A DNA stretch of 35,003 nt from IMG/VR virus record IMGVR_UViG_3300027734_000181, positions 1-35,003 of that record. The stretch is one strand, 5' to 3'. The stretch is from a virus. This document shows positions 22,951 to 35,003 of the stretch, piece after piece; within the stretch, counting starts at the first letter, position 1; the number at the start of each line of letters is the position of its first letter. The translations under genes and the position numbers were made by a program. The notes below the pieces were generated by a model. The model did no database searches, was not told where the DNA came from, and worked only from the letters and a program-made list of their open reading frames with translations.

Positions 22951-24420
22951 ATGGCAGATTATCTTGACTACTTAATGGGCCTTGGAGAGACTGGCGCAAC
23001 ACTTGGTAGCGGTGCAATGGCAGGCTTATTGGGTATGCCTTATGGCGTGTACAAGGGAGCCACCAGCGGCAAGCTAGGTACGCGAGAAGCTAATCGAATC
23101 GCCGAGGAAGAGGCTCGCAAGTTCATGGAGCAGTACACCTACCAACCTCGCGGCAAGGTGGCGCCTGAGATGATGCAAACCCTTGGCGGCCTGCTTGAAT
23201 CAAGCAAGTTGCCACCAGTTATCCCCGAGGCGGCGATGCTGGCGTCAATCCCTAAAGCAGCCTATGCCTCACAAGCTGAACGCACTGGCATGGCTGCTGA
23301 ACGCGCTATTGAGCCAATTGTTGAGCGCACCATGGCAAAGGGTGGACTTGGAGCTAGTCTGCTGAGTGACTTGTCGCAGGGTACTACAAGCAATGTAGTT
23401 AAATTACCAAGCAAAAAAGTTTTGGGATATGACCCTCAAAAATTAGCAGAGAGATATCCAAAAGTTGCGCCTGGTATGCCTGCTGTTGATCCTAAAACTG
23501 GCAAAGAATATATTGCAAAACAATTATCTGCTGAAGCTGAAGCAGTTCAAAAAGCACGCAATGCCGCACAAAAGGACATAGAAAAAGGAAAATACGAACC
23601 ATTTTTTGACGTTTCACAACGTGCCTATGTTGATCCTACAAACTACCCATTACAAGGTAGAACATTGACTGATGTCGTTCCTGCTAAACAGCAAACAATA
23701 GACAAATACCAAGCAATTTACGATACACCACAAGCAAGAGCAAATTTAGCTAGTGCATATGAAAAAGCAGTAAATGATCCGCTTGCCCATAATTGGTATG
23801 CAATGAAACAATACGAGGATGAATTCATTAAGCAATTCGGTCCAGAAAAAGGCCGTCAGTTATTTAAGGAGCGATTTGCAGATGCGATGGCAGCTACTAC
23901 TGGTGGCGCCGATCCAAAAGCAAATTTCTTGATGGGTCAATATGGGAATTTTTTACGTCAAAAAGGTATTGCTCAACCATCTTCAGCAGTAGATTTTCCT
24001 CATCCAATAGGTGGAAGATTTGCAAGTGGGAATATGTCTTTGTACGACAAACTAATAAATCAAGGTCAAGGCTTAACTGTACAAAATCCCAAAAGACATA
24101 ATTTTTCTGCCAACTTTTTAGGATACAGAGACAGACCAACTATTGATGAGCAGATGAGTCAGCTATATCAAGGTGGACTACTTGCGCCATATCCAAATAC
24201 TTATGGTTTGGCTGAGGGTGTACTAAATGATGTGGCAGCATCCAAAGGAATAATGCCTGTTAATTTACAAGATATTGCATGGATTGGAGCAAAGGGTGCT
24301 ACTGGCAAACCAATGATTCAAAACATAAATGAGGCAGTTGAAAGAACCAGCAGAATCACTGGGCTAATGCCAGATGAAGTTATGAAGAAGATGCTTGCTG
24401 GAGAGATTCCAACCTATTGA
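22951..24420 (+). CDS. Probable ejected protein with separate C-terminal domain
   Basis: A 489-residue protein. The N-terminal 145 residues resemble the other ejection proteins (GSGAMAGLLGMPYGVYKGAT, an LGGLLESSKLPP segment). From about residue 150 the composition changes to a polar, Asn/Tyr/Lys-rich domain with NDPLAHNWYAMKQYEDEF, NPKRHNFSANFLGY and LQDIAWIGAKGATGKPMI. I recall similar domains at the ends of large phage proteins thought to be delivered into the host. The DNA is clearly richer in A and T after about 23395 than before it, so the C-terminal part may be a later acquisition. The end overlaps the convergent minus-strand gene. Confidence 0.72.
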   Translation: MADYLDYLMGLGETGATLGSGAMAGLLGMPYGVYKGATSGKLGTREANRIAEEEARKFMEQYTYQPRGKVAPEMMQTLGGLLESSKLPPVIPEAAMLASIPKAAYASQAERTGMAAERAIEPIVERTMAKGGLGASLLSDLSQGTTSNVVKLPSKKVLGYDPQKLAERYPKVAPGMPAVDPKTGKEYIAKQLSAEAEAVQKARNAAQKDIEKGKYEPFFDVSQRAYVDPTNYPLQGRTLTDVVPAKQQTIDKYQAIYDTPQARANLASAYEKAVNDPLAHNWYAMKQYEDEFIKQFGPEKGRQLFKERFADAMAATTGGADPKANFLMGQYGNFLRQKGIAQPSSAVDFPHPIGGRFASGNMSLYDKLINQGQGLTVQNPKRHNFSANFLGYRDRPTIDEQMSQLYQGGLLAPYPNTYGLAEGVLNDVAASKGIMPVNLQDIAWIGAKGATGKPMIQNINEAVERTSRITGLMPDEVMKKMLAGEIPTY

Positions 24421-24541
24421 TGACATCAACAAGTCCGATGATTAGTTGGCACAATTCGAATGACTCATCATTTGATGGGTTTAATTCTATGATTTGCGCT
24501 TTTTCCAAAGCCATGTCTACATAATCTTTATCCATTTGCAT
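24380..24541 (-). CDS. Small protein behind the winged-helix regulator
   Basis: A 53-residue acidic helical protein (MQMDKDYVDMALEKAQIIEL...) whose ATG at 24541 lies inside the end of the regulator gene (stop at 24528-24530), giving translational coupling. It contains SFELCQLIIGLVDVINRLES. The 3' end overlaps the end of the ejection gene on the other strand by 41 bases. It might be a partner of the regulator. Support is mostly the tight coupling, so confidence is moderate. Confidence 0.5.
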   Translation of the reverse strand: MQMDKDYVDMALEKAQIIELNPSNDESFELCQLIIGLVDVINRLESLQQASSS

Positions 24542-24902
24542 CTCCAAACAGCGCAGCCACCAGCGGATCGCGCTTAATCTTCCACTTCTTTGCTCTTTCC
24601 TTTGCCATGCGAAAAGCATGATCGTCTAAGGACTCCTTGGCTCGCCAGCGTTTGAGCCTCTCTTGCGCCGTCAATGGTTTAGGCTTGACGGCATCAGAGC
24701 CTATCCCATGCCGATACACGGCCACCATCACATTGCCTGATCTGCGCCATTCCTGTATGTGGACAACGCCTTGCACGCGCAGCTTATTAATGAGGATCTG
24801 AGCTGACCTTTCGGTGCAAAAAACCTTGTCGGCCACCTCTGGCGCGGTGCAGCCGACACGCTGTAAAAGCGAGACAATGCGGGGTAGGCGAACAGATTTC
24901 AT
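24528..24902 (-). CDS. Winged-helix DNA-binding regulator, leaderless mRNA
   Basis: A 124-residue basic protein. The first 60 residues read as a winged helix: LPRIVSLLQRVGCTAPEVAD, then CTERSAQILINKLRVQG (recognition helix) and a beta wing VHIQEWRRSGNVMVAVYR. The tail is Lys/Arg-rich (LKRWRAKESLDD, KERAKKWKIKRDP). It likely controls early phage genes and possibly itself. No ribosome site precedes the ATG; instead a perfect -10 (TATAAT) lies 6 bases upstream, so the mRNA should begin at or near the start codon, as for lambda cI. The gene is on the opposite strand to the flanking structural genes. Confidence 0.82.
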   Translation of the reverse strand: MKSVRLPRIVSLLQRVGCTAPEVADKVFCTERSAQILINKLRVQGVVHIQEWRRSGNVMVAVYRHGIGSDAVKPKPLTAQERLKRWRAKESLDDHAFRMAKERAKKWKIKRDPLVAALFGDANG

Positions 24903-24938
24903 TCAAATATTATAAATGACTATGTAGTCAAGCGTCAA
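24903..24938 (-). promoter_or_regulatory. Promoter with palindromic operator for regulator gene
   Basis: On the minus strand, -35 TTGACG (24938-24933), an 18-base spacer and -10 TATAAT (24914-24909); expected start about 24902, the A of the ATG. The spacer holds a perfect 6-2-6 palindrome TGACTA-TG-TAGTCA (24917-24930, the two outer hexamers being reverse complements). A dimer bound there would block polymerase, fitting autoregulation or control by the second HTH protein. Bases 24939-24979 show no clear rightward promoter. Confidence 0.8.
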
Positions 24939-24979
24939 TATTCTTCTTTTTGTCATCTTTTTATGTGTTAATCCACTAC

Positions 24980-25351
24980 ATGAAGAATGTGCCAGATATT
25001 GATCAGGCGAAAGAGTTTCACGGCTACCTGATGAAGTGGCAGGAAATATTATCTTTGGGCGATTGGCGCATAGAGAGAGTTAATAAGATCGCCAAGGACG
25101 CAATGGCGTCAGTTGAGTTTGATCCACCAGCAAGGCTTGCGAGCTACAGGCTGGGGTCATTTGGCGGTGAAGAGATAAACAGCGCCAGCCTTGAGATGAC
25201 GGCGCTGCATGAGTGTTTGCACATCCTTTTACATGATCTTGTTGAGACAACGGCAGACAGGAATTCGACAGAAGAACAGCGAGAAATGGCCGAACACAGG
25301 GTTATCAATTTGCTTGAAAAACTTTTATTGAAAGACCATCATGGGCGGTAA
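24980..25351 (+). CDS. Small HExxH metallopeptidase-like protein
   Basis: A 123-residue protein with a zincin motif: L-H77-E78-C-L-H81-I-L-L-H85-D86, giving HExxH with a third His and an Asp in a short spacing. The N-terminal half contains a W-x-I-x2-V segment (GDWRIERVNK). I start it at ATG 24980, not the TTG at 24950, because the extension is AT-rich and lies in the upstream control region. Small phage proteins with this motif are often listed as putative metallopeptidases; the target is unknown, and the motif alone does not prove activity. The stop region overlaps the next gene by 11 bases. Confidence 0.78.
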   Translation: MKNVPDIDQAKEFHGYLMKWQEILSLGDWRIERVNKIAKDAMASVEFDPPARLASYRLGSFGGEEINSASLEMTALHECLHILLHDLVETTADRNSTEEQREMAEHRVINLLEKLLLKDHHGR

Positions 25352-26300
25352 AGCAGTTTATAGCGATCAAGAATTCATCGAGCTTTGGAATACTTACGAG
25401 TCAGGCAAGGCAATGGCAAAAGCCATAGGCATGGACTTGCGTAATATTCTGAGGCGCAAAAGCAATTTAGAAGCTAAGTATGGGCAGCAGCTCAAATCAA
25501 AAAACAATAAAGCTCAGACAATTACAAACAATTCAGCAAGAAAAGAATTGGGGATTGAGAATGGCGTTGTTATTGTTTTTAGTGATGCTCACTTCTGGCC
25601 TGGCATCCACACGACAGCGTACAAGGGACTTCTTTGGGCGATTAAAGAGTTTCAGCCAAAGGCTGTTATTGCCAATGGAGATGTATTTGATGGCGCTTCT
25701 ATCTCTCGCTATCCTCGCATTGGATGGGATTCAACGCCATCAGTAATCCAAGAGCTGAAAGCCTGCGAGATTGCTTTAGGTGAGATTGATGATACTGCCA
25801 AGAAAGCACGACACAATGTCAAGCTGGTGTGGACATTGGGAAACCATGATGCACGTTTTGAAAACCGACTCGCCTGCAATGCGCCGCAATATGAATTTGT
25901 AAAAGGCTTTTCGCTGAAAGACCACTTCCCGACATGGGAGCCATGCTGGAGCTGCTGGCCTACAGAGAATGTAACTGTCAAGCACCGCTGGAAAGGCGGT
26001 GTACACGCTACACACAACAATACTGTTAACGCTGGGGTCACAATCGTCACAGGCCATCTGCACAGCCTTAAGGTGACACCATTTGCTGACTACAACGGCA
26101 ACCGATTTGGCGTTGATACAGGCACTCTGGCAGAGACTGATGGACCTCAATTCATGAACTATCTAGAAGACTCGCCAACCAACTGGCGGTCAGGCTTTGC
26201 GGTACTTACGTTTCATGAGGGCAAGTTGCTATGGCCAGAACTAGTCCACAAGTGGGATGAGGGAAAGATTGAGTTTCGCGGGAAAGTTTACGATGTCTAG
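25341..26300 (+). CDS. Calcineurin-like metallophosphoesterase with N-terminal HTH
   Basis: A 319-residue protein. The first 50 residues contain a helix-turn-helix-like part (EFIELWNTYESGKAMAKAIG). The rest has all metallophosphoesterase signatures: FSDAHFWPG (D82-x-H84), NGDVFDG (113-117), LGNHDARFE (GNHD 167-170), VHATH (H222) and TGHLHS (238-241). The family uses two metal ions to cut phosphoesters in nucleic acids or nucleotides. The gene stands alone with the peptidase-like gene between two minus-strand groups, so it is probably an early gene. The substrate is not clear. Confidence 0.88.
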   Translation: MGGKAVYSDQEFIELWNTYESGKAMAKAIGMDLRNILRRKSNLEAKYGQQLKSKNNKAQTITNNSARKELGIENGVVIVFSDAHFWPGIHTTAYKGLLWAIKEFQPKAVIANGDVFDGASISRYPRIGWDSTPSVIQELKACEIALGEIDDTAKKARHNVKLVWTLGNHDARFENRLACNAPQYEFVKGFSLKDHFPTWEPCWSCWPTENVTVKHRWKGGVHATHNNTVNAGVTIVTGHLHSLKVTPFADYNGNRFGVDTGTLAETDGPQFMNYLEDSPTNWRSGFAVLTFHEGKLLWPELVHKWDEGKIEFRGKVYDV

Positions 26301-26436
26301 CTGGCTAATTGCGCTTGTTGGACTTATATATCTAGGAATTGGCATAGATCAGATAAATAAAGGCCAATTTTGGATGGGCATTACATTCATAGGTTATTCA
26401 TTTAGCAATGTTGGCCTGTACATGATGGCCAAATAA
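26293..26436 (+). CDS. Small two-helix membrane protein
   Basis: A 47-residue protein (MSSWLIALVGLIYLGIGIDQ, then INKGQFWMGITFIGYSFSN and VGLYMMAK). Two hydrophobic helices are separated by a short polar turn with NKGQ. The ATG lies within the last codons of the phosphoesterase gene, 8 bases overlapping, with GGGAAAG upstream. I recall comparable short membrane proteins in phage genomes. A host-membrane target seems likely; no specific function can be given. The stop is next to the terminator stem that serves the opposite strand. Confidence 0.7.
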   Translation: MSSWLIALVGLIYLGIGIDQINKGQFWMGITFIGYSFSNVGLYMMAK

Positions 26437-26459
26437 AAAAGGGGGTGATTAGCCCCCTT
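26435..26459 (-). terminator. Intrinsic terminator for leftward acidic-protein gene
   Basis: A 7-base-pair stem AAGGGGG / CCCCCTT (26439-26445 with 26453-26459) with loop TGATTAG. Read leftward, it is followed by a run of six T (complement of 26435-26440). It lies a few bases past the stop of the acidic gene and also just after the stop of the rightward membrane protein, so it separates the convergent units. It lacks a T run in the rightward direction. Confidence 0.85.
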
Positions 26460-26464
26460 ACCTA

Positions 26465-26752
26465 TCACTCAATGCGTTCCCACACTGTCCCGTCTTCAGC
26501 GTAGTACCAGTCACCGATTTCGTACTCTTCATCTTCTTCAACTTCTTCAATTTCGTAGTCTTCAACTTCTTCATCGCACTGGTTGAATTCGTACTCCTCT
26601 GTTACGTCATAGTCAACGCACCATCCATGGTCTTTTTGGAATTCGATAAATTCTTGGATTATTGCGATCTTGTCAAAGTCATTTGTTTCAATGGTCACTT
26701 TTTCAGTTGATGACCAGTCATACTCGCCAACTTCAATTTCAATTTTGTACAT
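26465..26752 (-). CDS. Extremely acidic small protein (possible DNA mimic)
   Basis: A 95-residue protein beginning MYKIEIEVGEYDWSSTEK. I count 24 Glu and 11 Asp against 4 Lys and 1 Arg, so net charge is near -30. The acid residues are spread along the chain and peak in EEVEDYEIEEVEEDEEYEIG, with many aromatics between them. This charge and size recall DNA mimics such as Ocr, but no homology is claimed. The start at 26752 is set by AAAGGAG 9 bases upstream; the longer frame covers the promoter. The gene has its own promoter and its own terminator. Confidence 0.8.
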   Translation of the reverse strand: MYKIEIEVGEYDWSSTEKVTIETNDFDKIAIIQEFIEFQKDHGWCVDYDVTEEYEFNQCDEEVEDYEIEEVEEDEEYEIGDWYYAEDGTVWERIE

Positions 26753-26760
26753 ATTAAAAG

Positions 26761-26812
26761 CTCCTTTAATGGCACGATTGCCAATTAAAATCCTATCGCC
26801 AAATTGTGACAA
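26761..26812 (-). promoter_or_regulatory. Promoter, operator-like palindrome and RBS of acidic gene
   Basis: On the minus strand, -35 TTGTCA (26812-26807), a 17-base spacer and -10 TTTAAT (26789-26784), each one base from consensus; expected start near 26777. A perfect 5-4-5 palindrome TGGCA-CGAT-TGCCA (26770-26783) lies over the start site and could be an operator or an mRNA 5' hairpin. AAAGGAG (26767-26761) is the ribosome site. Confidence 0.8.
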
Positions 26813-26818
26813 GTGCAA

Positions 26819-27007
26819 TTATGAATTTTGCTTGCTAGGCTTGGCGTGAGAGTAAACAGTTACTTGCTGCTTAGACTCAAGTCCTATCTTGGCCTGCGCT
26901 GCCTGTCCCCATGCTCTACCTTGCGCTATTTGGCGCATTTCCTTATCTCTTGTCCAGATTGATGGTGTGCCGTCACGCCAGTCGAATGCGTTCTTCTTAT
27001 CATTCAT
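26819..27007 (-). CDS. Small early protein of unknown function
   Basis: A 62-residue basic protein (MNDKKNAFDWRDGTPSIWTR...). The ATG overlaps the stop of the upstream gene (ATGA), and AAGGTG is found about 14 bases before it, so translation probably depends on coupling. Segments DWRDGTPSIWTRDKEMRQIA and GRAWGQAAQAKIGLE are amphipathic. It is the last member of the overlapping chain of small leftward genes before the separately promoted acidic gene. No known motif is seen. Confidence 0.68.
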   Translation of the reverse strand: MNDKKNAFDWRDGTPSIWTRDKEMRQIAQGRAWGQAAQAKIGLESKQQVTVYSHAKPSKQNS

Positions 27008-27162
27008 TTGTTATTCACCTTAATCTCTTTCTGAATGCCTGCACTCATTTGCAGGAACATCCGCATCCACTTGATACCGCCAAGCCTTACATACTCAGCG
27101 TATTCTGATTGGGTGAGGCGCAGCGTGATAGCGCGACCCAGCTCTGTCTTCTCTTTCATCAT
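27004..27162 (-). CDS. Small RHH-like early protein
   Basis: A 52-residue protein: MMKEKTELGRAITLRLTQSE, then YAEYVRLGGIKWMRMFLQMS and a short Lys-rich tail. The beta strand AITLRLTQSEYAEYVRLGG followed by two helices resembles a ribbon-helix-helix DNA-binding fold, which would suit a small phage repressor, but the call rests on this pattern only. A ribosome site GAGG precedes the start at 27162; the start overlaps the stop of the membrane micro-protein upstream, and the stop overlaps the next ATG. Confidence 0.65.
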   Translation of the reverse strand: MMKEKTELGRAITLRLTQSEYAEYVRLGGIKWMRMFLQMSAGIQKEIKVNNK

Positions 27163-27266
27163 TCAACCTCAAAATTTAAAAGTACCCACACAAAGCAAAA
27201 CAACGTGATGATCATCACTGCCATGCCAAACAAAGCCATCAAGAAAAAAATTATTGCGGTTTGCAT
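27159..27266 (-). CDS. Single-helix membrane micro-protein
   Basis: A 35-residue protein, MQTAIIFFLMALFGMAVMII continuing TLFCFVWVLLNFEVE, which is almost entirely one membrane helix with a short acidic end. Its start lies within the end of the upstream gene (16-base overlap), and its stop overlaps the next start. Its place in the overlapping chain is the main support. It may act on the host membrane, for example in superinfection exclusion, but that is a guess. Confidence 0.6.
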   Translation of the reverse strand: MQTAIIFFLMALFGMAVMIITLFCFVWVLLNFEVE

Positions 27267-27361
27267 GGCTTGGCCTCACTTGGTGGTGTCCAGCCAAAGC
27301 GCCGCCAAGTGGCCTGCACATCAACAGGCTTGGGGGGTGGTGGTGTAGGTATTGGATTCAT
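27251..27361 (-). CDS. Pro-rich micro-protein
   Basis: A 36-residue protein: MNPIPTPPPPKPVDVQATWR followed by RFGWTPPSEAKPCKPQ. The Pro-rich start and the VQATWRRFGW-TPPSE pattern I recall as a recurrent short phage reading frame of unknown role. The ATG overlaps the stop of the coiled-coil gene upstream (ATGA), and the end overlaps the membrane micro-protein by 16 bases. Confidence 0.62.
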   Translation of the reverse strand: MNPIPTPPPPKPVDVQATWRRFGWTPPSEAKPCKPQ

Positions 27362-27627
27362 TTTTGCACCGCCAGTAGTTCCATCTCCGCGTCTTTAAGG
27401 CGGTCCTTAATGCACTTCATTTCGTAGTCGAGCTGATCGAGCTGGCGCTGCATACGCTCGCGCTGAAATGACTCGCCATGCGTCCAGCCAAGCACAGTGC
27501 CGCTAGTGATGGTCTTGCGGATGAGCTGTTCAACTTCATGTACGGCCATCAAGCGAATGCCTTGCTTGTTCGATGACATGAAGCGTTGCACCTCGGCGTC
27601 TATTTCGTCTTGCATTTTCTTAGACAT
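27358..27627 (-). CDS. Small coiled-coil early protein
   Basis: An 89-residue protein, starting MSKKMQDEIDAEVQRFMSSN at 27627, where AAGGAG stands 6 bases upstream; the longer frame lacks such a site. The C-terminal 45 residues (from about 44, QRERMQRQLDQLDYEMKCIK, continuing to LLAVQK) form a clear coiled coil, so the protein probably oligomerises. MAVHEVEQLIRKTITSGTVLG lies in between. No known family is recognised. Confidence 0.75.
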   Translation of the reverse strand: MSKKMQDEIDAEVQRFMSSNKQGIRLMAVHEVEQLIRKTITSGTVLGWTHGESFQRERMQRQLDQLDYEMKCIKDRLKDAEMELLAVQK

Positions 27628-27886
27628 GAGTATCTCCTTGGGGTTGAGGGTTTGACCAGGCATGAACTAACAGCGTGGCGTTGTAGGGGATCGGTGTGAT
27701 GGTAGACACAAACAGGCCCTTACCGCGCTGCTTGCGTCCCCATGCGTCTGTGGCATTGACATTCTTGATGTCACCGCGCTTGACGGCAGCGTAGACCTTG
27801 ACGCGCTCAAAGCCGCCATCCTCCAGCTCGGCCATGCTGCGCGGTTCTTGGCAGAAGTCTTGAAGGTCGGTCAAGACGACCACCAT
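27620..27886 (-). CDS. Small early protein of unknown function
   Basis: An 88-residue protein (MVVVLTDLQDFCQEPRSMAE...). The central part, SMAELEDGGFERVKVYAAVK followed by RGDIKNVNATDAWGRKQRGK, has the spacing of a small winged-helix domain (helix, helix, then a beta strand pair), but this is tentative. The stop overlaps the start region of the coiled-coil gene by 8 bases and its start overlaps the membrane protein gene upstream by 16 bases. A role in early host takeover is only an inference from position. Confidence 0.7.
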   Translation of the reverse strand: MVVVLTDLQDFCQEPRSMAELEDGGFERVKVYAAVKRGDIKNVNATDAWGRKQRGKGLFVSTITPIPYNATLLVHAWSNPQPQGDTHV

Positions 27887-28008
27887 GCGGCCAGTAACAG
27901 GGCAAAGCCAACGCCAATAGCGATGGCGGTGAGGAAGTCAAGGGCAGAGTCAGCGCGGCGGTCTAAGCGCCTTGCTTGCTCAATGTAGGGGTGCTGGGTG
28001 TGGTTCAT
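27871..28008 (-). CDS. Single-helix membrane micro-protein
   Basis: A 45-residue protein, MNHTQHPYIEQARRLDRRAD followed by a membrane helix (SALDFLTAIAIGVGFALLLA) and AWWSS. The N-terminal part is polar with an RRLDRR motif. AAGGAGACACCTCAA before the ATG is a strong ribosome site. The end overlaps the next gene by 16 bases. Second member of the leftward operon; the role is unknown. Confidence 0.68.
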   Translation of the reverse strand: MNHTQHPYIEQARRLDRRADSALDFLTAIAIGVGFALLLAAWWSS

Positions 28009-28029
28009 TTGAGGTGTCTCCTTAAAGGT

Positions 28030-28045
28030 GGAGGCCGAAGCCTCC
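28030..28045 (-). promoter_or_regulatory. UUCG-loop mRNA hairpin between early genes
   Basis: Read leftward, GGAGGC-TTCG-GCCTCC forms a perfect 6-base-pair stem closed by a C(UUCG)G tetraloop, one of the most stable RNA hairpins. It lies in the 44-base gap between the first and second genes of the leftward operon and is not followed by a T run. It could protect the upstream mRNA, block exonucleases or mark a processing site. Confidence 0.65.
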
Positions 28046-28052
28046 TGGTTAT

Positions 28053-28325
28053 TTACTTGCGCTCTACTGTTCCGACCAATTCGCCATCCATGATCAAAAA
28101 CAAAATGTGTTTTGCAATGTTGAGTGTTTGGCGGCTGCGGTTTTGTGCGCCACCAGCAATCAATTCTTGAGCATCTGACATCAGGCCAGCTACAACCATA
28201 TTTGCGCCTGTAAATTGATATGTGATGGATTCTTTGACCGATTCCACATAAGCATCAATATCAGCGACTCCATACATATTGATGTTGCGTTCTTCTTGGG
28301 CGGTTGTTTGTGTTGCGTTTGTCAT
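28053..28325 (-). CDS. First gene of leftward early operon, unknown function
   Basis: A 90-residue protein (MTNATQTTAQEERNINMYGV...). I start it at 28325, where AAGGAG stands 9 bases upstream. It contains DIDAYVESVKESITYQFTGA, a hydrophobic NMVVAGLMSDAQELIAGGA segment and QTLNIAKHILFLIMDGELVG. It has no recognised motif. Being nearest to the strong leftward promoter and followed by a stable hairpin, it is probably the most expressed early leftward protein. Confidence 0.75.
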   Translation of the reverse strand: MTNATQTTAQEERNINMYGVADIDAYVESVKESITYQFTGANMVVAGLMSDAQELIAGGAQNRSRQTLNIAKHILFLIMDGELVGTVERK

Positions 28326-28355
28326 TTGAAAATCTCCTTGGGGTTGCGTTGTTGA

Positions 28356-28390
28356 TGGAAGAATCATAACAAAATTGACGAACTCATCAA
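28356..28390 (-). promoter_or_regulatory. Leftward early promoter with overlapping operator
   Basis: On the minus strand, -35 TTGATG (28390-28385), a 16-base spacer and -10 TATGAT (28368-28363, five of six consensus bases); start near 28356, about 30 bases before the first gene. An imperfect palindrome TGACGA-AC-TCATCA (28376-28389) overlaps the -35. It has the same 6-2-6 geometry and a similar half-site as the perfect palindrome at 24917-24930, so one repressor may bind both. Confidence 0.75.
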
Positions 28391-28410
28391 CAACTATTTA
28401 TTAGACCTTA

Positions 28411-28504
28411 CAAACTAGTCAACTATTACTGCTGTAAACTCAGCATTGGCGGTTTTACTGCCAGTTGCCTTTGGGGGGTCAGCGTGAGTTGATCCCCTTT
28501 TTTT
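28411..28504 (+). ncRNA. Candidate small RNA or untranslated leader RNA
   Basis: A possible rightward promoter, TTGACG (28375-28380) with an 18-base spacer and TATTAG (28399-28404), would start RNA near 28411. The stretch has no reading frame. It holds an imperfect hairpin around 28427-28466 (including GGCGG-TTTTA-CTGCC) and ends in the terminator at 28473-28504. A transcript of about 95 nt is predicted between the two divergent early units. This is inferred from signals only; no known RNA family is recognised. Confidence 0.4.
28473..28504 (+). terminator. Rightward intrinsic terminator in control region
   Basis: GGGGGTCA (28474-28481) pairs with TGATCCCC (28490-28497), 8 pairs with one G-T wobble and loop GCGTGAGT, followed by seven T (28498-28504). 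It faces right and lies before, not after, the -35 of the HTH gene. It therefore ends either read-through or a separate short RNA. Confidence 0.82.
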
Positions 28505-28513
28505 CTCTTACAC

Positions 28514-28550
28514 TTGACGCTTTCCACAAATTGAGGTTAACATACTTCAC
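28514..28550 (+). promoter_or_regulatory. Promoter of HTH regulator gene (leaderless)
   Basis: -35 TTGACG (28514-28519), an 18-base spacer and -10 TAACAT (28538-28543); the expected start is at about 28550, one base from the ATG at 28551. The block TTGACGCTT is identical to that before the winged-helix gene (24938-24930) and in the region at 33395-33403. There is no ribosome site at a useful distance. Confidence 0.72.
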
Positions 28551-28790
28551 ATGAAAACGATTTCACAAGAAGCACTCCATGCCATACGGCACAAAGTCGA
28601 ATGCGCCGGCTACAAGATGAGCGATGTCTGCCGCGTAGCGGAGATTGATCAGGCGCAGGTATCCCGCTGGATGAGTGGGACCACAGAGCCATTGTATGGA
28701 TCAGTAATGCGCTTGGATCAGGCTGCTGACGCTTTGGTATCAGCTCGCCTCACAGTCCTAAACAAGGCCATGGAGGACGCCGTCAAATGA
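28551..28790 (+). CDS. Cro/CI-like helix-turn-helix regulator
   Basis: A 79-residue DNA-binding protein. The HTH lies at about residues 22-45: KMSDVCRVAEIDQAQVSRWM followed by SGTTEP, with the usual Ser-Arg-Trp in the recognition helix. The length fits a Cro-type repressor. It is first in the rightward early operon and is probably translated from a leaderless or nearly leaderless mRNA. The stop overlaps the resolvase start (ATGA). It may counteract the winged-helix regulator, by analogy with Cro/CI, but direction and targets are not known. Confidence 0.85.
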   Translation: MKTISQEALHAIRHKVECAGYKMSDVCRVAEIDQAQVSRWMSGTTEPLYGSVMRLDQAADALVSARLTVLNKAMEDAVK

Positions 28791-29272
28791 GTACATTCAA
28801 ACCGCGCCGCATCATTGGCATTGACGTTGGCTTGTCAGGCGCAATTGCAATGATGCAGGGTGAGACTCTGACAGGCATTTTCGATATGCCCACAGTCTCG
28901 CTGATACGCAACGGCAAAGCCAAGCGCCAGATCAGCATCCCCGAATTGATCACCATCCTCAATGACTTCAAGCCAGACGAGGCGTACATAGAAAAAGTGG
29001 CAGCCCGAAGTGGGCAGGGCGTCACCAGCGTTTTTAGCTTTGGCCGCAGCCTTGGCGCGATTGAGGGTGTCATTGCAGCGAGATCCATCAAGTCCACTCT
29101 GATCACGCCACAGACATGGCAAAAGGCGATGGGGGTGACAGGTGGTAAGGACGGCGCAAGGGCGCGTGCCATGGAGCTGTTTCCATACAACGTGGACTAC
29201 TTCAAACGAAAGAAAGATGATGGCCGAGCAGATGCGGCGCTCATTGCTTGTTGGGGGTTGCGTCATGGATGA
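28787..29272 (+). CDS. RuvC-like Holliday junction resolvase
   Basis: A 161-residue RNase H-fold endonuclease that resolves branched DNA. It has the expected acidic residues: D13 in IIGIDVGLSG, E69 in AYIEKVAARSGQG, and D145/D149 in KDDGRADAALIA. The TPQTWQKAMG segment is typical of the family. In phages such enzymes debranch DNA before packaging and process recombination intermediates. It overlaps the HTH gene by 4 bases and the next small gene by 8. Confidence 0.92.
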   Translation: MSTFKPRRIIGIDVGLSGAIAMMQGETLTGIFDMPTVSLIRNGKAKRQISIPELITILNDFKPDEAYIEKVAARSGQGVTSVFSFGRSLGAIEGVIAARSIKSTLITPQTWQKAMGVTGGKDGARARAMELFPYNVDYFKRKKDDGRADAALIACWGLRHG

Positions 29273-29465
29273 CAAAGAACGAAACACATTGAGAGAACAC
29301 ATTGTTTGGCTTGGCTCGCAGCTTGAGTACCAGCGCCAAATCAACAAAGCAAATACAGAATTCCTTAAACGCTTGGTGCATCCCGAGGACTTGGGATTCT
29401 CGGTAAGCAATGAAGTTCGACAAATTGCTTACTCATTACTGATTAACAACCAAACAGAAAAATGA
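29265..29465 (+). CDS. Small charged early protein
   Basis: A 66-residue protein (MDDKERNTLREHIVWLGSQL...). I start it at ATG 29265, which overlaps the end of the resolvase gene; a longer frame exists but lies wholly inside that gene. It is mainly helical, with ANTEFLKRLVHPEDLGFSVS in the middle. The stop overlaps the nuclease start (ATGA). The function is unknown; its place suggests a role in replication or recombination. Confidence 0.65.
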   Translation: MDDKERNTLREHIVWLGSQLEYQRQINKANTEFLKRLVHPEDLGFSVSNEVRQIAYSLLINNQTEK

Positions 29466-30568
29466 AAAACCAACCCTTAAAACTCAGGCCGTCATCCGCA
29501 TCACGTTGGATCGCCTGCCCTGCCAGCGCCAGACTGTCAACGCTTGTGCCTTACCAAGAAAGTGGGGAGGCCGCCAAGATTGGTACTGCCATTCACGCGC
29601 TGGCCGAGACTTGCTTTCAGCTCGACACCGACCCCATGAAGTTTGTCGGCCAAGTGGTGGAGGGCATTACCATGACTGAGGAGAATTGCTCCTTTGCCTT
29701 GGAACACTTGCAGGCAATATGGGCGATTCAAGATGAGCTTGGCCATGTCAAGGTGGAGCAGCTCTTTAAGCTCTACCAAACGCCACAGTTCTCGCTACAA
29801 GGCACTGCCGATGTGGTGGGCATATCTCAGGACAAGCTGATTATTGCTGACCTTAAAACAGGCCGTGGCTACGTTGACGCTGACTCAGAGCAGATGAAGA
29901 TATACGCGCTTGGTGCGTTATTGCATCACAGCCAAAAGCCCAAAGAAGTCGAGTTCCAAATCATCCAACCCCATCACGGCGAGAAGCGCATTCACCGCAT
30001 GAGCGTGGATGAGCTGGGCGTGTGGGAGACAGAAGTGCTACTGCCTGCGATCAATGACGCTGTCAGCGATGCACCGCGCTACAACCCATCAGAATCAGCC
30101 TGCCAGTGGTGTCCAGCCAAGCACATTTGCTCTGCACAGAAAGAGCAGTTCGACATTGTGGCGGCGCAACCTGACATTACCATCATGTCCAAAGAGGACA
30201 TCAAAGAGGTGATGCTGGCGCTCACGCCTGCACAGATCAGCGCCATATTGGACCGCGCACCGATGGTAGAGAAGTTCATTGAGGCGGTAAAGGATCACGC
30301 CACAAAGCAGATGGAGGGTGGTGTAGTGCTACTAGGCTGGCAACTCCAACCTAAACGCGCATCGCGCAAATGGATTGATTCAACAGCAGCGCGTCAGGCA
30401 CTAACTGACGCAGGACTTACAGACTCTCAGATATTTGAGACTGAACTAATTTCTCCTACGGCGGCAGAGAAACTGCTGCCAAAGGAACAAAGAGTTATCT
30501 TGGACGCATTGACGGCCAAGGTATCAAGTGGACTCACCCTTGCGAGAGATCGCAGTCTGAGTCAATAA
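29462..30568 (+). CDS. Cas4/RecB-like nuclease with Fe-S cluster (DUF2800 type)
   Basis: A 368-residue nuclease of the PD-(D/E)XK class. Core motifs are GTAIHALAE (H45), GTADVVG (D117) and IIADLKTGRG (D130, K132) with QMKIYALGA as the motif-IV helix. Cysteines C19 near the N-terminus and C214, C217, C223 (CQWCPAKHIC) fit the 4Fe-4S cluster of Cas4 and AddB-type enzymes. I recall phage versions labelled DUF2800. It probably resects DNA ends during replication or recombination. No Cas1/Cas2 or array is near, so no CRISPR role is implied. Its C-terminal part (from about 290) adds an extra domain. Confidence 0.9.
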   Translation: MKNQPLKLRPSSASRWIACPASARLSTLVPYQESGEAAKIGTAIHALAETCFQLDTDPMKFVGQVVEGITMTEENCSFALEHLQAIWAIQDELGHVKVEQLFKLYQTPQFSLQGTADVVGISQDKLIIADLKTGRGYVDADSEQMKIYALGALLHHSQKPKEVEFQIIQPHHGEKRIHRMSVDELGVWETEVLLPAINDAVSDAPRYNPSESACQWCPAKHICSAQKEQFDIVAAQPDITIMSKEDIKEVMLALTPAQISAILDRAPMVEKFIEAVKDHATKQMEGGVVLLGWQLQPKRASRKWIDSTAARQALTDAGLTDSQIFETELISPTAAEKLLPKEQRVILDALTAKVSSGLTLARDRSLSQ

Positions 30569-30604: not shown

Positions 30605-31210
30605 ATGCTAAATCTATCCTCTGGTGGCGGTAATGGAAACTACATCCGCTTCTCACCCCAAGCCAACGCTTGGACAAACAACCTTGGCGCTGAAATCCAG
30701 CTCAAGAAAATCGTGTTTGACATCGATGCGGTGCAAACAGGCTGGCTCCAACTTGGTGTCGGCATCCGCGACTGGCAACCCGACTCAGAGTTGGGACGCA
30801 AAGGCGCACAGCCTACACCTGACCACAAGCGCGGCTTTATCGTCACGTTCTACAACAAGGAGATCGGCACTTGTGAATGGTCATCAAGTGGCGTTGGTCC
30901 GAACATGGGACTGGAAAAGATGTACACCGAGTGCGCTGCACAGCGTGCCGCCAATGCAGGCAAGTTGCCTGTGCTGGAGTACACAGGATCTAAGTTGGAG
31001 AAGATCGGCAAAGGCACTACACGCATCCCCAACTTCACCATTGTGAGTTGGATTGACAAGCCTGCCGGTATGGGGCAGAGCGATGAGGAGTACATTGCAC
31101 AGGCAGTGGCTCCAATGCCTGCACCAGCTCCCGCGCCGATGCCTGCACCAAAGCCAGTGCCTGCTAAGACGCCTATGGCTGCCGCCATTGAAGATGACGA
31201 AATGTTCTAA
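30605..31210 (+). CDS. Single-stranded DNA-binding protein-like
   Basis: A 201-residue protein. The N-terminal 150 residues contain beta-type segments (AEIQLKKIVFDIDAVQTGWL, HKRGFIVTFYNKEIG, TRIPNFTIVSWIDKPAG). A Pro/Ala linker (APMPAPAPAPMPAPKPVPAK) follows, ending in an acidic tail IEDDEMF. The OB-like body, flexible linker and acidic tail with a final Phe are the layout of phage and bacterial SSBs, whose tails recruit partner proteins. It lies between nuclease and primase-helicase genes. The ATG has only a weak upstream GAAAG. Confidence 0.85.
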   Translation: MLNLSSGGGNGNYIRFSPQANAWTNNLGAEIQLKKIVFDIDAVQTGWLQLGVGIRDWQPDSELGRKGAQPTPDHKRGFIVTFYNKEIGTCEWSSSGVGPNMGLEKMYTECAAQRAANAGKLPVLEYTGSKLEKIGKGTTRIPNFTIVSWIDKPAGMGQSDEEYIAQAVAPMPAPAPAPMPAPKPVPAKTPMAAAIEDDEMF

Positions 31211-31281: not shown

Positions 31282-33351
31282 ATGCAAGCAGAACAAATAG
31301 CCAAGAGCTTGGGCAACGCGAAAAGAGCCAACGGCCAATGGGTAGCAAGTTGCCCAGTACCTACTCATGGCAAAGGCAACGGCGACAAGAATCCAAGCCT
31401 GTCAGTACACATCGATGACGAGGGCAAGCCTTTGTTCCATTGTCATGGTGGATGCACTCAGGAGTCGGTATTCCAAACCATCAGGGATATGCAGCTCTTA
31501 CCTGAGTTGGAGGAGCGCCCCGATCCACTCGCCAACATCAAGCCATTACCAAAGATCGAGTTCCAGCAGGAATGGCAGTACCAAGACGAGGACCGCGTCA
31601 CAGTGTTTATCAAGCACCGGCTGCGCGTAGGGGAGTCAGGAAAGACATATAGGCTCTACAAAGTAGATACAGACGGCAAGCGATACCCGACATTGGGGGA
31701 CGCAAGGATCGTCCCATACAAGCTGCCCGAGCTGCTGGACGCAAAGACAGCGGGGCGCATCATCTATCTCGCCGAGGGCGAAAAGGCGGTGGACGCGCTG
31801 ATGTCACTCGGCGTGGTGGCGACCACCGCGCACAGTGGCGCAGGACATTGGCCCGAGGCTATTACCGAATACTTTGCTGGCGCCAATGTGGTGATTCTGC
31901 CCGACAACGATCTGTCAGGCTGGAGCTACGCACGCAAGGCAGCAGAGGCCATCCTACCCATCGCCAAGGCACTTAAGGTAGTTGACCTCAGACTGCAGGA
32001 GCTAGGCGATGACGCATACGAGTTCATTGAGGCAGGCGGCGGCAGAGCAGAGCTGGCGGCGTTGGTAAAGGCGGCGCCAAAGATCAACAGCGTGGATGAT
32101 GTAACGATACCCGAAAGACTACAGGCGATTACAGCCTCATGTTTAAAAACAGACGAAATTTATACACATCAGGATTCTCATGTACAAAAACAGGCTTCAA
32201 TTGAACATGAATTTGCTACAGACCCACCAAAGGAAGCGCCAGCACCAAAGCCAACCAAGACCATCAAGATCGAATCTTGGGACACCATACAGGACGAGCC
32301 AGTCGAGTGGCTAATTGAGGGAGTCATTCCAAAAGGATCGTTCACGGCGCTGTACGGGCCACCAGGCTCATTCAAGTCGTTCATTGCCTTGGACATTGCC
32401 GAGGCCATCGCAACAGGCAGGGCGTGGATGGGCAGGCCAGTTAAGCAGACAGGCGCGGTGCTGTACCTCGCTGGCGAGGGCTTTGGCGGTATCGGCGCAA
32501 GGATCAAAGCCTGCAAACTCCACCACCAAACCGAAGATGGAGCGCCAATCTATATTGTCAGACACCAGCTCAACCTCAGATCAAGCGCCGAGGACTTTAA
32601 TGCGCTCATGATGGCCGTGGTCACGCTGGTGGAGCAGACAGGCATGGAGTTCAGCCTAGCCATCGTGGATACGCTCGCCAGAGCCTTTGGCGGCGGTAAT
32701 GAGAATAGCTCAGAAGACATGGGTGCGTTTATCACGGCTATGGGTAAGGTGCAGGAATTCCTCAACTGCGCCTTGATGGTGCTGCACCATAGCGGTAAGG
32801 ACGCCGCCAAAGGACTGCGCGGCCATTCCTCGCTGCTTGGCGCGGTGGATACAGAGCTGGAGCTGCTGCGCTTTGACGAGCAGATGAAAGGCGTACTCAC
32901 CACTACCAAACAGAAAGATGGAGAGCAGGGGATCAGGTTTGGCTTTGAGATGGTGGAGGTAGAGATCAGGCCAGCAGGCTTGGGATTGAGCGAACCAATC
33001 GTCAGCCTGGCAGTGCAGTCATCCGATGACACGCATATTGAGCCATCAAAGGCCAGCAAGGGGAACTCTGGAAAAGGAAAAAATCAGCGACTTGAGATGC
33101 TCTGCCTAGAGAAGATGGTCAAAGAGCATGGAGCGCCAAAGTACATCGATGGTTTACAACGCCATGCGATCAGATTGGAGCAGTGGAGGCAGGAATTGTG
33201 GTCAAAGATGGGGTGTACTGATGAGGATAAAGGCACGTTCAAGACGGCATGGCATCGCGCAAAGCAGCGACTGATTGAGTCAGGCGAGGGTGCGATTAGG
33301 GACGATTTTGTATGGTTACAGTTTAAAAGCAGCGACTTTGAGGCTGGATAA
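31282..33351 (+). CDS. Primase-helicase fusion protein
   Basis: A 689-residue replication protein. Domains in order: a zinc-binding primase head (C24-P-V-P-T-H29 and H-C54-H-G-G-C58), a TOPRIM nucleotidyl-transfer domain (LAEGEKAVDAL with E165; ILPDNDLSGW with D208 and D210), a linker, and a RecA-like RepA/AAA_25-type helicase with Walker A YGPPGSFKS (359-366), Walker B LAIVDTLARA (D463) and VLHHSGKDAAKGLRG (about 500-514). The C-terminal 130 residues hold a basic helical domain. It should unwind and prime DNA for the host polymerase. No usual ribosome site is seen before ATG 31282. Confidence 0.93.
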   Translation: MQAEQIAKSLGNAKRANGQWVASCPVPTHGKGNGDKNPSLSVHIDDEGKPLFHCHGGCTQESVFQTIRDMQLLPELEERPDPLANIKPLPKIEFQQEWQYQDEDRVTVFIKHRLRVGESGKTYRLYKVDTDGKRYPTLGDARIVPYKLPELLDAKTAGRIIYLAEGEKAVDALMSLGVVATTAHSGAGHWPEAITEYFAGANVVILPDNDLSGWSYARKAAEAILPIAKALKVVDLRLQELGDDAYEFIEAGGGRAELAALVKAAPKINSVDDVTIPERLQAITASCLKTDEIYTHQDSHVQKQASIEHEFATDPPKEAPAPKPTKTIKIESWDTIQDEPVEWLIEGVIPKGSFTALYGPPGSFKSFIALDIAEAIATGRAWMGRPVKQTGAVLYLAGEGFGGIGARIKACKLHHQTEDGAPIYIVRHQLNLRSSAEDFNALMMAVVTLVEQTGMEFSLAIVDTLARAFGGGNENSSEDMGAFITAMGKVQEFLNCALMVLHHSGKDAAKGLRGHSSLLGAVDTELELLRFDEQMKGVLTTTKQKDGEQGIRFGFEMVEVEIRPAGLGLSEPIVSLAVQSSDDTHIEPSKASKGNSGKGKNQRLEMLCLEKMVKEHGAPKYIDGLQRHAIRLEQWRQELWSKMGCTDEDKGTFKTAWHRAKQRLIESGEGAIRDDFVWLQFKSSDFEAG

Positions 33352-33484: not shown

Positions 33485-34168
33485 ATGGCAACAAAGAGAA
33501 CATCAAACAAGCATCCAGTGGTGGAGCAACCAGGTCCAAAGGCAGATCCTTGGACGATTCACGTTCAATCAAAGTTGGTGGAGTTGGAGTCGGTCAAGGC
33601 TGCCAGCGATAGGAAATGGGGAGAAAACCGACTGTGTACTTTGGTAAACAGTGAGTTGAGGGAGAAATTCTGGCTACAGAACAACAGACTGCATCAAGCG
33701 ATGGAGTCCAAAGATCGGGCGAAGTTCGATTCCAGCGTGGCGGGAATGATCAGGGCGTACAACGTGCTGGATCAGTGGGCAACTGAAGAGGGACTGGATC
33801 CAGCGTCAGCCATACCGAGGATTGAGTGGGAGATGCAGAATGGTCAGACCATGGTGATTGTCAGAACAGTCAATGAGGCAGTAGCGATACAGACTCAGCG
33901 TCAGGAGTTGGTAAATCACCACATCTGGTCAATGCAAGAAATGGAGGTGCTGCTAGCTGATCCTCGGATGCAGGAAGTCATCAAGATTAAGGCGCTTGTG
34001 CCAACAGCGCAGCTTACCAACTTCAAGCCAACATCAGAGTTCAAGCCTGGTGGCGCAACAGGCTTTGATGACTTTGAAAACGATCTGACATTCAGCGACA
34101 ATGACACCATGGAATACAAGTTCAATTCCGCACAGGCAGAAAGGTTTAGAGATGGCCGGAAGACCTAA
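33485..34168 (+). CDS. Unknown protein before small terminase
   Basis: A 227-residue protein (MATKRTSNKHPVVEQPGPKA...) with no family I recognise. The N-terminal part is basic and flexible, the middle is helical (ELREKFWLQNNRLHQAMESK, AGMIRAYNVLDQWATEEG), then a beta segment TMVIVRTVNEAVAIQTQRQE and an acidic Gly-containing end (GATGFDDFENDLTFSDND). GAGGGAATGAG stands before the ATG. It shares 17 bases with the small terminase gene, which suggests a role in packaging or late gene control. Confidence 0.78.
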   Translation: MATKRTSNKHPVVEQPGPKADPWTIHVQSKLVELESVKAASDRKWGENRLCTLVNSELREKFWLQNNRLHQAMESKDRAKFDSSVAGMIRAYNVLDQWATEEGLDPASAIPRIEWEMQNGQTMVIVRTVNEAVAIQTQRQELVNHHIWSMQEMEVLLADPRMQEVIKIKALVPTAQLTNFKPTSEFKPGGATGFDDFENDLTFSDNDTMEYKFNSAQAERFRDGRKT

Positions 34169-34580
34169 GTTTCGCAAAGACATGGAGTTGCTGGAAGAGC
34201 TGCCAGACGACATGATCGTGTCGATGTTCGAGGCAGGCAAGTCACACACAATGATTTGCTACGAGCTTGGCATTGGGCGCAGGGCGCTTGAGCAATGGAT
34301 TGAGGACACAGATCCCAATATAATTGCGCGTGCGCGAGCGAAAGCCGCCGATAAGCTCGCGGTGGAGACAATGACCATTGCAGACAGCATGGCTGACAGC
34401 AATCCGCAGCGCGATGTCCAGCGCATCCGCACTCGCCAGTGGCTGGCCGAGCGATGGGATCAGAAGACTTATGGCTTACAAAAGGCGCAGCAGATCAATA
34501 TCAACGTGCAAGACCTACGCATGGCCGCGTTGCGTCATGTCGAGGTGATCGATGACTTATCCACAGAAAAAAGCCAATGA
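34152..34580 (+). CDS. terS: Terminase small subunit
   Basis: A 142-residue DNA-recognition subunit of the packaging motor. The start at 34152 gives the usual opening MAGRPKFRKDMELLEELPDD; the longer frame upstream has no such feature. It contains an HTH (SHTMICYELGIGRRALEQWI, residues about 35-54) and the typical ADKLAVETMTIADSMADSN and QRIRTRQWLAERWDQKTYG segments. It would recognise the packaging site and hand DNA to the large subunit encoded just past the circle junction. The last codons contain a DnaA box (34557-34565). Confidence 0.9.
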   Translation: MAGRPKFRKDMELLEELPDDMIVSMFEAGKSHTMICYELGIGRRALEQWIEDTDPNIIARARAKAADKLAVETMTIADSMADSNPQRDVQRIRTRQWLAERWDQKTYGLQKAQQININVQDLRMAALRHVEVIDDLSTEKSQ

Positions 34581-34750
34581 TGCACACATTGCCCTGTGGA
34601 CAAATGCAAACTGCCTACGGATTAAGCAGAATCGCTGTAGTTATCCACAATAAAGTTAACATAATGAACATCGTATTAAACCGATTATGTAAGGTTCGTG
34701 TAAGAAAGTATATGAATCAATGACTTACAGACGCATCGACCTGTGGATAA
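34557..34750. other. DnaA-box cluster, candidate replication origin
   Basis: Three exact DnaA boxes, TTATCCACA at 34557-34565 and 34641-34649 and the reverse TGTGGATAA at 34742-34750, plus the near match TGTGGACAA at 34595-34603. Between the second and last boxes lies an AT-rich stretch with three TGTAAG elements (34688-34693, 34699-34704 and inverted at 34724-34729), the first two 11 bases apart. There is no gene from 34581 to 34871. Host initiator boxes near an AT-rich segment are what a host-dependent origin would need; this is an inference. Confidence 0.65.
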
Positions 34751-34764
34751 CTTTGCAGCCGTTT

Positions 34765-34845
34765 ACTGGCCGCCAGGCGCTGGCCGTGGCTGGCGCGGCG
34801 GCGGCGAGCCCCCCCTTGCTCGCGGCGGCGGGGGCGGCTGATGCA
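34765..34845. other. GC-rich hairpin block before terminase gene
   Basis: Very GC-rich sequence unlike the rest of the genome. It holds the hairpins GCCAG-GCG-CTGGC (34772-34784) and GCGAGC / GCTCGC (34804-34809 with 34818-34823, loop CCCCCCTT), flanked by GGCGGCGG runs on both sides. There is no T run, so it is not a normal terminator. Directly before the large terminase gene and after the small one, it is a reasonable candidate for the packaging start site or part of the origin. Confidence 0.5.
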
Positions 34846-35003
34846 GCACCTAAACACATATCGCCACACGCATGAGCAACCCCACCCCCCTATCCCCCAC
34901 CGCGCAAAAGCGCCCCCCGAAAAAAAATTCGAATGATTTGGTGGTGAACAACCCTTTTGTCGAATTCGTCAAGCTCTACAAGAACAACCCTGTCCTGTTT
35001 GTC
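34846..35003. repeat. Right copy of imperfect terminal repeat
   Basis: 34846-34863 equals 3-20 and 34878-35003 equals 29-154. The middle (34864-34877) differs from 21-28 by a 6-base indel and substitutions. Joining the copies gives a circle of about 34.85 kb. Confidence 0.9.
34872..35003 (+). CDS. terL: Terminase large subunit, 5' end of second copy (partial)
   Basis: The first 44 codons of the terminase gene, cut by the window end. It reads MSNPTPLSPTAQ instead of MTNPTPLSPTAQ and is then identical to the copy at 23. In the closed genome this is the same gene, so only one full terminase exists. The upstream 11 bases (TCGCCACACGC) differ from the left copy and contain no clear ribosome site in either version. 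Confidence 0.85.
   Translation, partial: MSNPTPLSPTAQKRPPKKNSNDLVVNNPFVEFVKLYKNNPVLFV

Follow-up and report, generated by a model that had tools for sequence, protein, structure and literature searches.

A conserved DnaA-box cluster enclosing an XerC/XerD-type site is a candidate plasmid-like replication origin in uncultured tailed phages

Four DnaA boxes were located within 194 bases (34557-34750) between the small and large terminase subunit genes (terS and terL) of the window, i.e. the whole 35,003-base stretch of viral DNA analysed. Box 1 (34557-34565, plus strand, TTATCCACA) was inside the 3' end of terS (34152-34580, plus strand; Sf6_terminase, PF20901), box 2 (34595-34603, minus strand, TTGTCCACA) had one mismatch, many relatives having TTATCCACA at this position, and boxes 3 (34641-34649, plus strand) and 4 (34742-34750, minus strand) were both TTATCCACA, the latter being shifted or flipped in some relatives. 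The three perfect boxes were the only exact TTATCCACA matches in the window, where 0.22 were expected, and three or more were reached in none of 100 shuffles. The recount therefore agreed with the initial annotation, which had described three perfect boxes and one near match, one of them within the terminal part of the small terminase gene, at a density unlikely to arise by chance. The AT-rich stretch that it had placed among the boxes was borne out by ranking duplex stability: the 100-bp window around 34,620 was the third least stable separate region (only 0.09% of 100-bp windows were less stable), the least stable one being elsewhere. In other box-bearing genomes the cluster was among the 0.1-1.8% least stable windows, without being the global minimum.

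Two further elements of the cluster had gone unnoticed. A 28-bp XerC/XerD-type site (34654-34681, minus strand; GTTTAATACGA TGTTCA TTATGTTAACT in dif orientation) was found inside it, with the 11-6-11 layout of dif, cer and psi: XerD arm at 34654-34664, 6-bp centre at 34665-34670 and XerC arm at 34671-34681. An IHF site (34715-34727, plus strand, WATCAANNNNTTR) was predicted from an exact match to the consensus AATCAATGACTTA. The TGTAAG repeats already reported between the boxes were found on the plus strand at 34688-34693 and 34699-34704, 11 bp apart, and an inverted copy (CTTACA, 34724-34729, minus strand) overlapped the IHF site. In the alignment of relatives, the most conserved block (TTAACATAAT...TCGTRTTAA, between boxes 3 and 4) corresponded on its other strand to the Xer site, which was thus the most conserved element of the cluster; box 1 showed a mean column identity of 99% (35 aligned sequences). 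A strongly conserved GC-rich inverted element of C-runs and G-runs followed by TGATG was also observed between the cluster and terL (34795-34835), and could be a pac site or a transcript structure; G-runs (ATGGGGGGGGAG) were also seen near the Xer core of unrelated phages.

The arms of the phage site matched the published dif of the comamonad Rhodoferax ferrireducens (ACTTGATACGATGTATATTATGTTAAGT; PMC2731167), but the 6-bp centre did not. The same arms recurred in dif-type sites of one family, 25 of whose 121 genomes each contained a single copy of the string TACGATGTATATTATGTTAA. Tailed-phage Xer sites kept the arms and had centres that varied between phages (TGTTCA, TGTCCA and many others vs. 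TGTATA in dif); the window site shared only TGT with the dif centre, and some relatives lacked even this. In L088, a relative with 60% TerL identity, the corresponding position was occupied by near-canonical dif arms around another centre (AAGGCGCATAA TCGTGA TTATGTTAAAT). Inoviruses, recognized by Zot-like and replication-initiator genes, bore the same arms with the dif centre TGTATA. Recognition of the 28-bp core by XerC/XerD is strongly implied by this arrangement, and from the match of its arms to comamonad dif the host is probably a member of the Comamonadaceae. The comparison with host oriC found a single box upstream of dnaA in the genomes examined, and oriC was not located.

Sites combining perfect dif arms and a highly variable 6-bp centre were common in a further set of viral contigs (L216-L335): TGTATA occupied about 28 of 120 sites, some 47 other centres were distributed among the rest, and most of these sites had no DnaA boxes. 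In four of the contigs (L225, L257, L260 and L276) several DnaA-type boxes lay near canonical dif-armed sites, and no RepA-type helicase was detected; L276 contained two Xer sites 106 bp apart.

Conservation was analysed in 80 IMG/VR loci retrieved by a TerL search. More than 60 of these, the ones extending far enough upstream, retained boxes between terS and terL, which answers the concern, raised with the initial annotation, that they might not be conserved in relatives. Spacings were 38, 46 and 101 bp in the closer relatives; in some lineages 49 replaced 38, i.e. one helical turn more. Diverged members had TTGTCCACA instead of TTATCCACA or a flipped box, the cluster still being present, and box 3 was lost in some relatives. 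Of 15 box-bearing relatives, complete or partial, 13 had no exact box outside the cluster. When column conservation was tested for the boxes by themselves, the result was modest (P 0.02), since they compete with the Xer core and the IHF site in the same region; geometry across phages is the stronger test.

A DNA-pattern scan revealed the same arrangement in phages whose terminase was about 30% identical or undetectable. Relative to the Xer core, the boxes were at -110/-99, -76, -61, -15/-21 and +82 to +113, and in most dereplicated box-bearing lineages the TGTAAG direct repeat was found at +32, followed by the IHF consensus at +59/+60 or +69/+70; several of the shifts in box and IHF position were of about 11 bp. 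Outside the TerL family, box density was 11.5/kb up to 130 bp from the Xer core, vs. 0.04/kb elsewhere. Comparison of the whole region with named phages or plasmids at the DNA level gave nothing useful, no cultured relative carrying the module was found, and the box cluster was not found in the 32 of 39.7 kb examined of MW202711, a phage of the RepA type.

The genes preceding the cluster formed a replication cassette, all on the plus strand: a RuvC-like Holliday junction resolvase (28787-29272, profile match), a DUF2800/PD-(D/E)XK exonuclease (29462-30568, profile matches), a replication-module protein co-conserved with the module (30605-31210), a primase fused to a RepA-type replicative helicase (31282-33351; AAA_25; RSF1010 RepA, 1g8y) and a protein found next to the module in relatives (33485-34168), for which the fold search returned no solved fold and only unnamed viral relatives. 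The primase-helicase of the initial annotation corresponded to 31282-33351, and the absence of a polymerase was upheld, since Pfam and PHROGs detected no DNA polymerase, integrase or partition gene; the SSB gene it had named was 30605-31210, which had no match in Pfam, PHROGs or PDB. Upstream (24380-28790), short minus-strand genes were observed, together with a small, divergently oriented HTH gene (28551) that had weak CII/repressor-like PHROG matches.

Where the terminases of a phage were unrelated or undetectable, the module still lay about 1.3-1.5 kb from the RepA-type (RSF1010-like) helicase gene, and terS was not beside it. In L112/G413 it followed the helicase-primase and 33485-type genes, and G413 kept the whole replication cassette together with the module and had no match to the portal, capsid or terminase proteins of the window. 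The module thus belongs to the replication cassette and not to the terminase. A RepA-type helicase gene was present at up to 3.5 kb from 21 of the 25 distinct Xer loci with at least two boxes, vs. 4 of the other 45 (70 distinct loci in all; Fisher P 3e-10, a statistic that ignores relatedness). Xer sites also occurred alone: in L088, and in L155/G412 and L125, circular (34.7 kb) or partial phages having no homologues of the window proteins searched. The box-less sites of L088 and L155 indicate that the two functions are separable; the linkage to the helicase gene assigns the boxes to replication.

Overlapping ends closed the window into a circle of about 34,849 bp, with the gene for the large terminase subunit spanning the join. 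Relatives also gave circular maps, with contig overlaps of 127-2837 bp and openings at different places, consistent with headful packaging of permuted DNA. Fixed genome ends at the locus were considered and discarded on account of these differing openings and overlaps. The two copies of the end overlap (1-30 and 34855-34880) differed just before the terL start (TTATGACG vs. CCACACGCATGAGC), which suggests strain variants at the circle join.

On comparative evidence, the cluster is a real, conserved and functional element. The boxes, the IHF consensus, the Xer-type site, their conserved geometry and the linkage to the helicase cassette can be read directly from the sequences, which strongly imply that DnaA binds the cluster. 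A conserved box cluster, an adjoining AT-rich region, a predicted IHF site and linkage to replication genes are features expected of an origin, and we identify the locus as one with moderate confidence. The fuller explanation, held with somewhat more confidence than doubt, is a plasmid-like origin assisted by DnaA and IHF, with an XerCD site for multimer resolution built into it, in a circularly permuted phage of a probable comamonad host. The dependence on host DnaA proposed in the initial annotation thus continues to be the best reading, in view of the conserved boxes and of their linkage to the replication module; recruitment of the host replisome, which it also proposed, would not need to extend to the host helicase, since the phage encodes its own RepA-type helicase-primase. 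Third-codon-position GC and AT skew showed no clear origin-marking switch; the genes run in one direction, which confounds this check, and it counts neither for nor against an origin.

In this explanation, host DnaA would bind the four boxes and host IHF would bend the DNA between boxes 3 and 4; the adjacent AT-rich stretch would then melt and admit the phage RepA-type helicase-primase, host Pol III copying the phage genome. In the same complex, host XerC and XerD would act on the site with the phage-specific 6-bp centre, and recombination between two copies would convert dimeric circles into monomers, as at plasmid cer and psi, with no crossover into host dif. Lying on the XerC side, the TGTAAG direct repeat would probably be bound by an accessory protein, which may be a regulator of the OmpR/ArcA type, as at psi; this is the weakest step. 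A bolder and more tentative version is that DnaA, IHF and a TGTAAG-binding protein, held in fixed helical phase around the Xer core, form one nucleoprotein machine that both initiates replication and controls monomer resolution, as a cassette moving between phages with unrelated packaging genes.

The locus might instead be mainly an Xer recombination complex in which DnaA, IHF and the TGTAAG-binding protein are only architectural accessories, wrapping the DNA and giving directionality to XerCD recombination, replication starting elsewhere. The fixed, helically phased distances of boxes, IHF site and TGTAAG repeats from the core across unrelated phages would fit this, as would the conservation of the core above any other element, and accessory proteins are normal at cer and psi (available text of PMC5357621). 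The same text does not describe DnaA as an Xer accessory factor, and the boxes track the helicase gene whereas box-less Xer sites are common, so that we regard this alternative as unlikely.

It is rather improbable that the Xer site is an attP by which a temperate phage with no integrase of its own integrates at host dif via XerCD. No integrase was found, the arms correspond to those of host dif, the dif centre occurs in inoviruses that share these arms, and the window centre keeps TGT on the XerC side, which suffices for XerC-first exchange in some filamentous phages. However, the centre is otherwise unlike that of dif and varies widely among the tailed phages, in contrast to the inovirus sites; no repressor was confidently identified among the phage genes; and the TerL scan of genomes of 84,980 species revealed no close prophage (the best match, 60%, was an Opitutae MAG contig), although the hosts may be unsampled. 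The attP reading was set aside on the failure of its centre to match host dif.

Titration of DnaA by the boxes, disturbing host replication, had been offered in the initial annotation as the alternative to an origin. In outline, DnaA boxes and an IHF site on phage DNA present in many copies do recall datA, but there are only three or four boxes, and the Xer core, its fixed phase and the linkage to the helicase gene would be left unexplained; this function fits less well and is very unlikely. That the region is a pac site placed by terS is the least credible possibility, its position between terS and terL and the headful packaging suggested by circular permutation being outweighed by the association of the module with the replication cassette rather than terS/terL in unrelated phages, and by the DnaA boxes and Xer arms, which it does not explain.

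The combined origin and resolution site that we favour resembles several known systems. The origin of plasmid pSC101 comprises a DnaA box, an IHF site and an AT-rich stretch, and the plasmid carries psi, an XerCD site with a non-dif centre; in that plasmid the origin lies apart from psi and initiation relies on a RepA iteron initiator, whereas in the phage, where no such initiator was recognized, the Xer core lies between the DnaA boxes. As at cer and psi, the phage centre differs from that of host dif. The 11-bp-spaced TGTAAG repeat beside the XerC arm is a candidate accessory-protein site; at psi of pSC101 the accessory proteins are ArcA and PepA (available text of PMC5357621). P1 is likewise a tailed phage; its plasmid-type origin (oriR) contains DnaA boxes and its genome is resolved to monomers site-specifically, but it uses its own Cre/lox and RepA iterons instead of host XerCD and a RepA-type helicase, the two functions being within about 200 bp here. 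CTXphi, VGJphi and TLCphi (IMEX phages) likewise carry dif-like 28-bp attP sites for host XerCD, but integrate at dif, unlike this 35-kb tailed phage with its non-dif centre. RSF1010 encodes a related hexameric helicase and a primase, but replicates independently of DnaA, through RepC iterons, vs. a DnaA-box cluster here.

The separate parts are therefore already known, DnaA boxes and IHF from plasmid origins and XerCD sites from plasmids and filamentous phages; no report of a tailed-phage module with an Xer core nested among DnaA boxes was found in open-access papers, the literature searched. The module provides a sequence signature for finding such phages, its dif-matching arms being a clue to the host, and the idea that DnaA and Xer act in one complex can be tested on it directly. 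If the proposed explanation is true, abundant uncultured freshwater phages would replicate like host-dependent plasmids, kept monomeric by host XerCD, which would raise the question of a phage-plasmid lifestyle for these phages.
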